This document shows positions 674 through 5,505 of a stretch of DNA of 64,000 nucleotides, one piece after another. The DNA is from Anaerolineae bacterium (lineage in GTDB: Bacteria; Chloroflexota; Anaerolineae; 4572-78; J111). The stretch lies in assembly GCA_016931895.1 (NCBI GenBank), contig JAFGDY010000237.1:1-64000 (forward strand), given 5' to 3'. The notes under the pieces are model-generated. The model did not search any database, was not told the origin of the DNA, and worked only from the letters and a program-made list of their open reading frames with translations. Within the stretch, counting starts at the first letter, position 1. Each line of letters starts with the position of its first letter. A program made the position numbers and the translations under genes.

Positions 674-3343
674 TTAACTCCGCAATCTGGCGCCCAACTC
701 CTGCGCCAGGCGTTTGACAATTTTATCTTGCTGTTTGGCCACCACCTGGTCGGTGAGGGTGCGATCTTGGGCCTGGAAGGTAAGGCTGTAGGCCAGGCTC
801 TTTTTGCCCGGGCCAAGCTGCGCTCCCCAGAACACGTCAAACAAACGCACCTCCACCAGCAAGGGCCGGCCGGTTTGGGCGATGAGCGTTTCCACCTGTT
901 CCGCCGGAAGATTCTCATCCACCACCACGGCAATGTCTTGCTGCACTGCGGGAAAGCGAGAGAGACTCCGCACCACGTACAAGTCCGGTATCTGGCATAG
1001 CAAGGCGTCAAGGTCAAAATCGGCGGCCAGCACCGGCTGGCCATCGTCTACTTGCAGCTCGTAAGCAGCCACCACCAGCGGGTGCAACTGGCCCAACACA
1101 CCCATCGCCTGACCATTGACCCGCAACTCGGTCACCCGACCCGGATGGTAGGCTAGGTGTTGGGTGGGAATGTAAACGATGTTGTCCAGGTGCAGCCCAT
1201 TGAGAAACGATTCTACCACCCCCTTCAAATCATAAAAGTCAACCACACTCCTATCTGCACCAGGCAGCCAGGTAATGTCCTCACGCGGGCCGGCCATCAC
1301 CATAGCCAAGCGGACCGGCTCGGCGGGCAGGATGGCGGCTTCGCCCTGTTCCCCCTCTTGAGAAAGAGGATTGGGCAGGTAGACGCTACCCACTTCAAAT
1401 ACCTGCACCCGGTGATGATGTTTGCTATTTTCAGCCGCCATTTCCAATACGCTGTTGAGCAGGCTGTGGCGCATTACGGTCCGCTCCGGGGTGGAGGGAT
1501 TGGCCAGGGTAACATACTGCGCCCTGGCCGGATAGTCCTGGCCCAATACGCGAGCTTCGGCCTGGGGCGTGGTGAGCCGATAGGTGATCACTTCTTGCAG
1601 GCCGGCCTGGATCAACAGATCGCGGGTGCGCTCCTCGCGGTCAAGGGCAGGATTATTACGCTGCGGCGGCAGTTCGTCCGCAATTTCCGATACCGGCAGG
1701 CGATCATAACCGTAAATCCGAGCAATTTCTTCAATCAGGTCGGCCCGGCCCGTTGTCGGCTCGGCCGAAATGTCCAGCCGGTGATCCGGCACAGTCACCC
1801 GCAAGGTAGGGCTATCGGCCTGAATTTCTTGCACCTGGAATTCCAATGATTCCAAAATATGCTTGATCTTGGCCAATTCAATTTCGATCCCCAACAAGCG
1901 GGTCACTTCGGCCTGGGGCAGGTCAAACACCACGGCTTCCGGCGAGTTGGGATAATAATCCAACACCCCCTTGACCGCGGCGCCGGCCAGGTCGGCCATC
2001 AATTTGGCCCCTCGCAATGCGCCCAGCATCGCCAGGCTGGGATGCACGCCCCGGCTGAAACGATAGGCCGCCTCAGAGGGAATATTGAGCGCCTGGCTGG
2101 TGCGGCGAATGTTGATAAAGTTCCAGGCCGCCGCTTCCAATAGAATGTTTTGGCTTTGCTCACTGACCTCACTTTCTCCCCCCCCCATGATGCCGCCAAT
2201 ACTGAGATTGCCCTTGGGATCGGTGACCAAAATGGAGTAGTCAGGCATCTGGTGAATCTTTTCATCCAAGGTCAGCACAGTTTCGCCGGGTTCGGCCAGA
2301 CGGGTGATAATTTTAACCACTCCCTCCTTTGTACCCTCCGTTGAGGAGAAAGATGAGGGGGGATACTCAACCGCCCGGTGGCGCAGCACGTCCCAATCAA
2401 AGGCATGGTTGGGCTGGCCCGTTTCCAACATCACGTAGTTACTCACGTCCACAATGTTGTTGATGGGGCGCATCCCGGCCAGCCGCAATCGGCGCTGCAT
2501 CCAATAGGGCGACGGCTTGATTTCGATCCCCTCAAGCAGGATGGTCACAAAGCGGGGGTTCAACTCCGGCTCGGTGGTTTCAATATCCAACACACCTTCC
2601 AACGAGGGAGGCAACACCTCGGCGTGGCCCATGGTCAAACCACTGCCGGCCAGAACCGCGGGTTTATAATCGGCCAATTCACCCCCACTGACATCATATA
2701 CGGCGGGGTAGCGCACTTTCTGGCCCGTCAGCGCGGCTACCTCCCGCGCCACCCCCAAAATGGAGGCGCAGCGGCTGATGTTGGGCGTCAAGTCAATATC
2801 CAGCACCACATCGCCCCATAGATCAACCAGGGGTGTACCCGGCGGGGCATCATCCTGTGCCAGGATGATGCCCGTGTGGTCGTCGCTGAGGCCCAGCTCT
2901 TTTTCGGAGCAGAGCATATGGCGGTTCATGATCCCCCGCACTTCACGACCCTTGAGCTTCATTTTTGCGCCGGGTTCTTTGGCGTGACCATCGTAGACTG
3001 TGGCCCCTTCCATCACAAAAGGCGATTTGAGACCCAGGTGGCTAATGTCGCCCTGGCCGACGAACTCAAACAGGTTGGGTGCGCCGGTAACCACGGTTTC
3101 CGGCGCGGCGGCGCCAATGTCAACCGTAGCCAAAACCAGACGATCGGCGTTAGGGTGTTGCTCTACCTTAAGAATGTGGCCCAGCACCAATTTATCATGA
3201 TCCCAAACTAAATCAGCCCCTTCCACGCCGATATAGTCAATGCCGCCAACTTCCAGCCCGGCCAGGGTTAAACGTTTGGCCAGTTCTGCTACAGGTAACG
3301 TAATGTCTACAAAATCTTTTAACCAGCTAATAGGTACTTTCAT
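674..3343 (-). CDS. pheT: Phenylalanyl-tRNA synthetase beta subunit
   Basis: This is the large subunit of the cytoplasmic (alpha-beta)2 enzyme that charges tRNA-Phe. The N-terminus MKVPISWLKDFVDI is typical of PheT. An EMAP-like tRNA-binding domain follows (PNADRLVLATVDIG, about residues 40-150), then the B3/B4 editing region, the B5 domain and the catalytic-like core. The C-terminal FDX-ACB anticodon-binding domain (SRFPAVQQDIAVVV, about 795-889) closes the 889 residues. I chose the ATG at 3343 over an in-frame start 14 codons upstream because the family begins with MKVPISWL. It lies 105 bases behind pheS with a palindromic repeat between them, and both should share the attenuated promoter upstream of pheS. 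Confidence 0.96.
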   Translation of the reverse strand: MKVPISWLKDFVDITLPVAELAKRLTLAGLEVGGIDYIGVEGADLVWDHDKLVLGHILKVEQHPNADRLVLATVDIGAAAPETVVTGAPNLFEFVGQGDISHLGLKSPFVMEGATVYDGHAKEPGAKMKLKGREVRGIMNRHMLCSEKELGLSDDHTGIILAQDDAPPGTPLVDLWGDVVLDIDLTPNISRCASILGVAREVAALTGQKVRYPAVYDVSGGELADYKPAVLAGSGLTMGHAEVLPPSLEGVLDIETTEPELNPRFVTILLEGIEIKPSPYWMQRRLRLAGMRPINNIVDVSNYVMLETGQPNHAFDWDVLRHRAVEYPPSSFSSTEGTKEGVVKIITRLAEPGETVLTLDEKIHQMPDYSILVTDPKGNLSIGGIMGGGESEVSEQSQNILLEAAAWNFINIRRTSQALNIPSEAAYRFSRGVHPSLAMLGALRGAKLMADLAGAAVKGVLDYYPNSPEAVVFDLPQAEVTRLLGIEIELAKIKHILESLEFQVQEIQADSPTLRVTVPDHRLDISAEPTTGRADLIEEIARIYGYDRLPVSEIADELPPQRNNPALDREERTRDLLIQAGLQEVITYRLTTPQAEARVLGQDYPARAQYVTLANPSTPERTVMRHSLLNSVLEMAAENSKHHHRVQVFEVGSVYLPNPLSQEGEQGEAAILPAEPVRLAMVMAGPREDITWLPGADRSVVDFYDLKGVVESFLNGLHLDNIVYIPTQHLAYHPGRVTELRVNGQAMGVLGQLHPLVVAAYELQVDDGQPVLAADFDLDALLCQIPDLYVVRSLSRFPAVQQDIAVVVDENLPAEQVETLIAQTGRPLLVEVRLFDVFWGAQLGPGKKSLAYSLTFQAQDRTLTDQVVAKQQDKIVKRLAQELGARLRS

Positions 3344-3383
3344 ATTCAACTCTCGATTTTTTAAGTTTTTTGGCAATGGCGGC

Positions 3384-3449
3384 AAGGTAGCAAGTAGCAG
3401 GGTAGCGACTATTATAGCACTCTGCTACTCTGCCATTCTGCTACCCTGC
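3384..3449. repeat. Palindromic repeat cluster between pheS and pheT
   Basis: The gap is built from variants of GTAGCAGGGTAGC and its complement CTGCTACCCTGC. GCAGGGTAGC (about 3397-3406) pairs perfectly with GCTACCCTGC (3440-3449), the latter touching the pheS stop codon. Extra partial copies (CTGCTACTCTGC) lie in the loop. The same words occur after pheT (607-639) and a partial one at 4549-4559, so this is a small local intergenic repeat family rather than one terminator. Confidence 0.6.
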
Positions 3450-4474: not shown

Positions 4475-4575
4475 ATCTTGTTCTCCTCATCGTGGATAAT
4501 GTCTATCGTCGGCAGAGCCATATCATAGTCTATCTTGCCTTGTGAGACAAGTAGCAGGGGGCAAGAATGTTGGGC

Positions 4576-4611
4576 AAATAAAAAGGGCGCAACCGAGAGT
4601 GGTCGCGCCCT
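4576..4611 (-). terminator. Intrinsic terminator of the pheST leader (attenuator)
   Basis: On the minus strand AGGGCGCGACC (4611-4601) pairs with GGTTGCGCCCT (4594-4584) around a six-base loop, an 11-bp GC-rich stem with one G-U pair. TTTTTATTT follows. It lies 26 bases after the leader stop codon and about 100 bases before the pheS ATG. Its left arm can alternatively pair with 4661-4654 upstream (8 bp), so terminator and antiterminator exclude each other. Confidence 0.85.
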
Positions 4612-4637
4612 GGAAAACCCCTTGTTATCTAGCTGCC

Positions 4638-4814
4638 TCAACCTCCGGCCATCAGAGCGCGCCACAACGCGCCGCTAAAAAAGAAAAAGAACCCCATAAA
4701 GGCAAAGGCAAACACGGCCAACCAGGTGTTAGTATTGGCCGTACTATCTTCAGCTTTGGCAATCACTTCTATTTTGGGTTGGTTTTTGAGCCACCGGTAG
4801 AGTTGTTTTGACAT
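4638..4814 (-). CDS. Phe-rich leader peptide / small membrane protein upstream of pheS
   Basis: A 58-residue ORF starting MSKQLYRWLKNQ, with AGGAGA ten bases before its ATG and a strong promoter just upstream. The C-terminal third (AVFAFAFMGFFFFFSGALW) could be a single membrane helix and holds eight Phe, five of them consecutive (codons at 4691-4677). The RNA right after those codons forms alternative hairpins, and a terminator follows the stop. The E. coli pheST leader pheM is likewise Phe-rich but only 14 residues long. I infer a ribosome-stalling leader for attenuation of pheST. It could instead be, or also be, a real small membrane protein. The in-frame ATG at 4850 lies inside the -10 box and is rejected. 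Confidence 0.75.
   Translation of the reverse strand: MSKQLYRWLKNQPKIEVIAKAEDSTANTNTWLAVFAFAFMGFFFFFSGALWRALMAGG
4654..4691 (-). promoter_or_regulatory. Phe codon run and antiterminator arms of the pheST attenuator
   Basis: Five Phe codons occupy 4691-4677. Directly after them arm 1 (AGCGGCGCG, 4676-4668) can pair with arm 2 (GGCGCGCTCT, 4663-4654). Arm 2 can instead pair over 8 bp with arm 3, the left side of the terminator (AGGGCGCG, 4611-4604). A ribosome stalled on the Phe codons would cover arm 1 and free arm 2 to block the terminator. This is the 1:2 / 2:3 / 3:4 logic known from trp, his and pheST leaders. The pairings are seen; the mechanism is inferred. Confidence 0.7.
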
Positions 4815-4840
4815 GATATATTTCTCCTGATATTGATGAC

Positions 4841-4869
4841 AATATAGCACATTCCGGGGTCCATGTCAA
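4841..4869 (-). promoter_or_regulatory. Sigma-70-type promoter of the leader-pheST operon
   Basis: On the minus strand TTGACA (4869-4864), a 17-base spacer and TATATT (4846-4841) give a near-consensus promoter. The expected start is near 4834, about 20 bases before the leader ATG at 4814. Confidence 0.85.
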
Positions 4870-4903: not shown

Positions 4904-4919
4904 TTCAATGATTGTTGAA
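4904..4919. promoter_or_regulatory. ArsR-type operator, copy 1
   Basis: TTCAA-N6-TTGAA at 4904-4919 matches the half-sites and spacing of two further copies closer to arsR. It lies between the divergent pheST and ars promoters, about 40 bases upstream of the ars -35 box. Confidence 0.6.
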
Positions 4920-4944: not shown

Positions 4945-4962
4945 AAGTGACGAATGTCACTT
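4945..4962. promoter_or_regulatory. Palindrome overlapping the ars -35 box
   Basis: AAGTGAC, four bases, GTCACTT: a perfect 7-4-7 dyad whose last two bases are the first two of the TTGACA box. The core GTGA-N6-TCAC resembles CRP/FNR-family sites. A regulator bound here would cover the -35 region. No matching regulator gene is in the window. Confidence 0.5.
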
Positions 4963-4989
4963 GACATCTACTGGCACAGGGCGTATAAT
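4961..4989 (+). promoter_or_regulatory. Consensus promoter of the arsenic cassette
   Basis: TTGACA (4961-4966), 17 bases and TATAAT (4984-4989) are a perfect sigma-70 consensus. The start would be near 4996, just ahead of an ArsR-type operator at 5001-5020. A strong promoter blocked by a repressor at +5 to +25 is the expected arsR arrangement. Confidence 0.9.
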
Positions 4990-5000
4990 CCAGCATAGAT

Positions 5001-5020
5001 ATTTCAATAGAGATTGAAAT
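5001..5020. promoter_or_regulatory. ArsR-type operator, copy 2
   Basis: A perfect 8-4-8 palindrome, ATTTCAAT and ATTGAAAT, containing TTCAA-N6-TTGAA. It sits at the predicted transcription start, so a bound repressor would block initiation. Confidence 0.8.
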
Positions 5021-5063: not shown

Positions 5064-5079
5064 TTCAATAGTTATTGAA
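5064..5079. promoter_or_regulatory. ArsR-type operator, copy 3
   Basis: TTCAATA, two bases, TATTGAA; again TTCAA-N6-TTGAA. It is 61 bases (about six helical turns) from copy 2 and 33 bases before the arsR ATG. Confidence 0.7.
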
Positions 5080-5112: not shown

Positions 5113-5505
5113 ATGGCCGAGAAGCAAACTATTTGTGGGGAAACATTGGATAAAGCGACCACCATTCTTAAAGCCCTGGCCGATACCAACCGGCTACGGG
5201 TGCTTGACCTGCTAATGCAAGGGGACTCGTGTAATTGTGAGTTGAATGATCGCCTGGGGCTGCCGCCCAATTTGCTTTCACATCACTTGCGCATCTTGCG
5301 TAAAGCCGGGCTGATCCATAGTCGGCGTGATGCCGTTGACAGCCGCTGGATTTATTATGCTGTAGATCGAAAGGAGATCAGCCGGTGGCGAAACTGGTTC
5401 GACGAATTTTTTGATCCGGCTCGAATTCAGCCTCGCCTGGTTTTATGCGGCCCGGAAGGACAACTGACAACTGACGAACGAGTTCAGCCAACCAAAGGAA
5501 AATAG
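5113..5505 (+). CDS. arsR: ArsR/SmtB-family metalloregulatory repressor
   Basis: A 130-residue winged-helix repressor. The ArsR fold runs over residues 12-95 (LKALADTNRLRVLDLLMQG, then the recognition helix LPPNLLSHHLRILRKAGLI). A Cys-x-Cys pair (SCNCEL, about residues 38-43) lies where As(III)-sensing ArsR proteins carry their thiols, and another Cys is at position 8, so a three-thiolate arsenite or metal site is plausible. Binding of As(III), Sb(III) or a soft metal would release DNA. It is the first gene of the cassette, behind a consensus promoter with three candidate operators, so autoregulation is expected. GGAG precedes the ATG; the next gene begins four bases after the stop. Confidence 0.92.
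   Translation: MAEKQTICGETLDKATTILKALADTNRLRVLDLLMQGDSCNCELNDRLGLPPNLLSHHLRILRKAGLIHSRRDAVDSRWIYYAVDRKEISRWRNWFDEFFDPARIQPRLVLCGPEGQLTTDERVQPTKGK

Follow-up and report, generated by a model that had tools for sequence, protein, structure and literature searches.

Among the described systems closest to the locus reported here is the pheM-pheST attenuator of Escherichia coli (Springer et al. 1985, as cited in PMC11802643), in which a Phe-codon leader of 14 codons, located downstream of rplT, is combined with a terminator and an antiterminator ahead of pheST. In Corynebacterium glutamicum (Actinobacteria), a Phe-Tyr-Phe leader precedes the DAHP synthase gene in the aroR-aroF attenuator, for which ribosome stalling has been proposed (Neshat et al. 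2014; PMC11802643, PMC4046766); a single such leader is described. The uORFC-13-1 motif found before aroF in Acholeplasma comprises a uORF with one or more Phe codons and a terminator, and attenuation has been proposed for it as well (PMC8632094). In bacilli, the His leaders of hisS and hisZ attenuate a gene for an aminoacyl-tRNA synthetase by means of a leader peptide, and paralogous genes have leaders that resemble each other (PMC2965389). A 2010 survey listed leader-peptide attenuation only in Proteobacteria and Actinobacteria, in addition to its own case from Firmicutes (PMC2965389), and we found no earlier report of it in Chloroflexota in the open literature, which misses most subscription papers.

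In the 64-kb stretch of Anaerolineae (phylum Chloroflexota) DNA that we analysed (hereafter, the window), pheS is preceded by a 58-codon leader ORF with five consecutive Phe codons and by the arms of an RNA switch (Table 1). Leader and switch together very probably sense phenylalanine shortage ahead of pheST. Judging from sequence comparisons, we consider it highly probable that pheST is subject to ribosome-mediated transcription attenuation by this element, which would work by stalling at Phe codons and was most likely copied from the leader of a DAHP synthase (DAHPS) gene. The locus resembles its E. coli counterpart in having a Phe-codon leader, a terminator and an antiterminator ahead of pheST, and in the proposed logic. 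It differs in the presence of its own promoter, a promoter-like block (P2) downstream of the terminator and upstream of pheS, homology to aro leaders, and a leader that is, as had been remarked before, four times longer than the enterobacterial one. Homology between the window leader and pheM is not shown: no similarity between the two is evident by eye, nor would one be expected, and no Rfam leader family matches even at E 5.

Table 1. Features of the pheST leader region in the window (positions are those of the window).
Feature	Coordinates	Strand	Basis
Promoter P1 of the leader, TTGACA-17-TATATT, near-consensus	4841..4869	-	Promoter pattern search
Leader ORF, 58 codons, MSKQLYRWLKNQPKIEVIAKAEDSTANTNTWLAVFAFAFMGFFFFFSGALWRALMAGG	4638..4814	-	ORF listing; homologues 5' of pheS and DAHP synthase
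Five consecutive Phe codons (FFFFF), putative control codons	4677..4691	-	Sequence; Phe cluster in all pheS leaders
Arm 1, GGCGCGT, pairs with 4662-4656 (7 bp including 2 G-U)	4667..4673	-	Predicted fold of this sequence
Arm 2, antiterminator 5' strand, GTGGCGCGCTCTG	4653..4665	-	Fold, duplex tests and covariation
Arm 3, antiterminator 3' strand, CAGGGCGCGACCAC; overlaps terminator 5' strand (4611-4601)	4599..4612	-	Fold and covariation
Arm 4, terminator 3' strand, GGTTGCGCCCT, then U tract (4583-4575)	4584..4594	-	Terminator call and covariation
P2, promoter-like block between terminator and pheS, TTGTCT-17-TATGAT (4550-4522)	4518..4552	-	Promoter pattern; 4-genome alignment
pheS, 341 codons	3449..4474	-	PF01409 profile, E 3e-89
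pheT, next operon gene; boundaries as in mechanical ORF list	674..3385	-	Position after pheS

The main landmarks are those that an earlier note on this DNA had listed, namely a near-consensus promoter, the Phe run, and a U-tract terminator followed by pheS and pheT; the last of these is an ORF that we take to be pheT from its place after pheS and from general knowledge of the family. P1 is not peculiar to this leader, as 13 of 16 leaders of the same GTDB family match the pattern of a P1-like promoter 23–58 nt upstream of the leader ATG. The ORF has an AGGAG Shine-Dalgarno sequence and a stop codon at 4640 (- strand), and FFFFF occurs at just one other place in all six frames of the window.

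Two mutually exclusive structures can form from the arms. The terminator (4611-4601/4594-4584, - strand) is an 11-bp hairpin of -23.5 kcal/mol followed by the U tract TTTTTATTT, and the antiterminator (4665-4653 with 4612-4599) has a similar stability of -25.2 kcal/mol. The pairing of arms 3 and 4 over 11 bp is as the earlier note had it, and arm 1 does pair with arm 2 in the predicted fold, but the pairing of arms 2 and 3, put at 8 bp, proved to be one of 13 bp with one bulged A. Both structures are conserved by compensatory change. Specifically, in an alignment of 16 family leaders, 98.9 per cent of the terminator cells are paired and four pairs have changed on both sides (a covariation score reached by none of 500 shuffles), and the antiterminator is 84.1 per cent paired with four doubly changed pairs, compared with 31–57 per cent for slid versions. 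An alignment-independent test compared, for every leader, the duplex of arm 2 and its cognate arm 3 with the duplexes that the same arm 2 forms with the arm 3 of every other leader. Cognate pairings were more stable than swapped ones (mean -20.9 vs -17.0 kcal/mol; 49 leaders, permutation p 5e-5), and the same p-value, which is the floor of these permutations, was obtained for 33 aroH-type leaders and for 62 leaders.

The arrangement of these parts suggests how the switch would operate. Arm 2 lies between the control codons and the stop codon, about 12 nt after the last Phe codon and, in most leaders, 6–11 nt before the stop codon. The leader would be transcribed from P1 and translated. With ample Phe-tRNA, the ribosome would clear the five Phe codons, reach the stop codon and mask part of arm 2, leaving arms 3 and 4 to form the terminator, and the RNA would end near 4576. 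If Phe-tRNA were short, the ribosome would stall on the Phe run, ahead of arm 2, which would stay free to pair with arm 3, and RNA polymerase would continue into pheS-pheT. This geometry of masking and freeing is one that we infer from the usual ribosome footprint. A Trp codon is located inside arm 2, and stalling there would consequently have the opposite effect.

Another type of cis-element, such as a T-box or a protein-binding attenuator, might control pheST instead, with the ORF being incidental. T-boxes control pheST in many Firmicutes. However, a search of the element against Rfam returned neither a T-box nor any other family at or near threshold, the distance of about 25 nt from P1 to the leader ATG gives too little room for a T-box, and control codons combined with covarying arms fit the sensing of translation. 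We therefore regard control by such an element as extremely improbable.

The reading frame of the leader is under protein-level constraint (dN/dS 0.14 between the pheS leaders of G000 and G001). Across its N-terminal 28 codons, dN/dS is 0.07–0.5 in most pairs and 0.83 in one, which supports translation of the frame. The same constraint would suit an ordinary gene for a small membrane protein, followed by a terminator of its own; the Phe run would then be just a hydrophobic segment, and P2 would drive pheST. The C-terminal half of the leader is indeed hydrophobic, and P2 is conserved (in G000, G001, G004 and G010). We judge this explanation very unlikely, as a lone terminator leaves the covariation of the antiterminator unexplained, and two comparisons described below also argue against it. 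Additionally, the peptide might act in trans, like the leader peptide peTrpL of Sinorhizobium (PMC7298713). The conserved N-terminal part, MSKxLxxLxKNQxxVKV, which most leaders of both types, pheST and DAHPS, have in this family, would then be a small functional protein linking the two operons, a role that we consider unlikely.

P2, which lies 3' of the terminator, probably supports a basal level of pheST expression and could bypass the attenuator. An inverted repeat, CTTGT-CTC-ACAAG, spans its -35 element; P2 was rejected as a repeated operator, as it has a single match in the genome. On the other side of P1, three TTCAAT-N4-ATTGAA palindromes (4904-4919, 5003-5018 and 5064-5079) flank a promoter at 4961-4989 (+) that matches the sigma-70 consensus at 12 of 12 positions; an arsR-like gene (5113-5505, +) and genes resembling those for arsenic resistance follow it. 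The palindromes are likely ArsR operators, one of them near the promoter of the pheST leader.

Six of the 10 same-family genomes with readable sequence upstream of pheS carry a Phe leader there. Homologues of the window leader precede pheS in G001, G003 and G009, and a diverged one, assigned by position, in G010. A further leader, in G004, is of the pheS type, although its contig ends before any pheS; that leader and its P2 are followed by a VapBC-like toxin-antitoxin pair. The remaining four readable genomes (G002, G006, G008 and G011) are without a pheS leader, and hence it is not essential. In G006, which belongs to the same genus as G010, a nucleotidyltransferase-like ORF is found in that place (L035). 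The Phe cluster is present in all pheS leaders. The pheS leader of G005, read from that genome's own contig, has an unrelated N-terminus and has nevertheless kept the Phe cluster and the terminator, and its antiterminator arms are re-matched (arm 2 CTGTCGCGC with arm 3 GCGCGACAG). This combination of a new N-terminus with the same Phe codons and arms is difficult to reconcile with an ordinary membrane protein gene. The N-terminal peptide is partly conserved within the family, but is conserved neither in G005 nor outside the family. The membrane-like look of the leader follows from its Phe run and, given this lack of N-terminal conservation, needs no extra function; the dual-function membrane gene that the earlier note had offered as one option is not demonstrated.

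In each of the 10 family genomes with a complete DAHP synthase gene, a homologous leader with the same switch precedes that gene, also in the genome of the window (C248:70060-70239); no third homologous leader was found when the latter genome was searched. The window leader matches the DAHPS leader of G006 with an E-value of 1e-9 and 48 per cent identity, and the terminator sequence GGGCGCGACC is shared between the two leader types, occurring in most DAHPS leaders of the family. In 396 genomes of the class, every strong homologue of the leader that was found lies before DAHP synthase or is a pheS-type leader, and every one has both a terminator and an antiterminator. The ORF's occurrence away from pheST in relatives had been named in advance as evidence against attenuation. 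Such copies do exist, yet they precede DAHP synthase, where the terminator and arms accompany them as at pheST, and this strengthens the attenuator reading. The same distribution speaks against an ordinary membrane protein gene, and a stand-alone membrane protein was rejected as a candidate, as no strong copies occur away from DAHPS or pheS-type leaders.

The control codons of the two leader types differ. DAHPS leaders have clusters of mixed Phe, Tyr and Trp codons (e.g. AGVFYFFGYYFWGDLWRVLAGG), which fits an enzyme at the entry to the synthesis of all three amino acids. The ratio of Phe to Tyr plus Trp codons in the clusters is 40:12 in pheS leaders and 51:62 in DAHPS leaders (Fisher p 2e-4, which is only a guide because the rows are related). 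Most likely, an old attenuator of aro operons gave rise to the pheST leader as a paralogue retuned to Phe; the most probable route is copying of the DAHPS leader within this family, after which the control codons shifted to Phe. A leader tree with the pheS copies as one clade has a p-AU of 0.36, and a single origin is thus neither resolved nor rejected. Like the DAHPS loci of the family, the C. glutamicum and Acholeplasma systems combine an aromatic or Phe-codon leader with a DAHP synthase gene, with stalling proposed for the former and a terminator present in the latter. In contrast to C. glutamicum, for which one leader is described, the leaders studied here include a paralogue at pheST and have much longer aromatic runs; uORFC-13-1 differs in lineage and consensus and has no link to pheST. 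Bacilli likewise attenuate a synthetase gene through a leader peptide and have related leaders at more than one gene, but there the amino acid is histidine and the leader is common to duplicated hisS genes, whereas here the two genes are unrelated and belong to one amino-acid family.

An in-frame hairpin (ACGCTCGC/GCGGGCGT, then TTTTTTATTTTT) inside the DAHPS leader ORFs (L168-L177) is terminator- or pause-like, and its U tract encodes Phe-Tyr-Phe. It has z-scores of -1.7 to -5.1 in 10 of 10 DAHPS leaders, occurs also in G017 and G015, and is absent from pheS leaders. We considered a hairpin 5' of the aromatic codons as a possible universal component of the switch and dropped it from the mechanism, because only the family's DAHPS leaders have a strong one, unlike pheS leaders and most aroH leaders.

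In other families of the class, an aromatic leader precedes an aroH-type chorismate mutase gene, which is followed by DAHP synthase. Among Anaerolineae aroH loci for which 300 nt or more of upstream sequence is available, 27 of 28 have a terminator and 26 of 28 have a terminator and an aromatic cluster (at least 5 aromatic in 9 residues). The same test of leader plus terminator was negative at all 30 control loci (trpE, 0/8; tyrS, 0/12; trpS, 0/10) and positive at 2 of 78 pheS loci of the class, G001 and G009, both of this family. A general use of such leaders for all aromatic genes was rejected, as trpE, tyrS and trpS of the family have none. Covariation, cognate-arm pairing and the control loci together lend good support to the attenuator reading with which the earlier note had begun. 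In a sample of the phylum, leader and terminator precede aroH at 4 of 4 further Anaerolineae loci and at 9 of 26 loci of other Chloroflexota classes. Several leaderless loci of those classes have a trpA-like gene before aroH, which places aroH at a later position of the operon. Leaders of other classes (L266, L272, L278, L279, L286, L287 and L289-L291) often end in ...AWSLRTV or ...DWSLRIS. A second short conserved ORF, with the motif TTRE[AS][RK]..PSHF..(G)HWSR, is located between aroH and DAHPS, about 100 nt before DAHPS (L178, L179, L182, L185 and L190; also L232 and L240).

The family's DAHPS leaders and the aroH leaders of the phylum agree in position, codon type and switch; the sequences are short and strongly diverged, and the likeness may be due to convergence. 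An independent invention at pheST, as the earlier note had also allowed, conflicts with the homology to DAHPS leaders and with the occurrence of this attenuator type at the aroH/DAHPS operons of a large part of the phylum. Its expectation of a variable N-terminus, kept Phe codons and covarying arms was borne out best by G005 and the wider aroH leaders. The aroH clusters are interchangeable runs of Phe, Tyr and Trp codons with no fixed peptide motif, and they bear on one more explanation, in which the leader would be a TnaC-like nascent-peptide arrest sensor that detects free Phe via the peptide instead of by codon stalling. The length of the leader and the partial conservation of its N-terminal peptide in the family would suit such a sensor. 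The absence of a fixed motif, the correspondence of codon identity to the downstream gene, and the unconserved N-terminus in G005 and beyond the family all favor codon stalling, and we give an arrest peptide slightly less credence still than an ordinary membrane protein gene.

Taken together, the known comparators and the lack of a Chloroflexota report in the literature that we searched point to a known kind of device, an apparently undescribed group of aromatic leaders in Chloroflexota, and an instructive duplication. Leader attenuators would then serve the aromatic operons of a large part of the phylum. The pheST copy would be a natural example of an attenuator that was duplicated to a new gene and retuned via its control codons. 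With one scaffold at two genes with different codon sets, and with natural variants in which the N-terminus is swapped or the antiterminator re-matched, the evolution and design rules of attenuators would be directly testable in this family.
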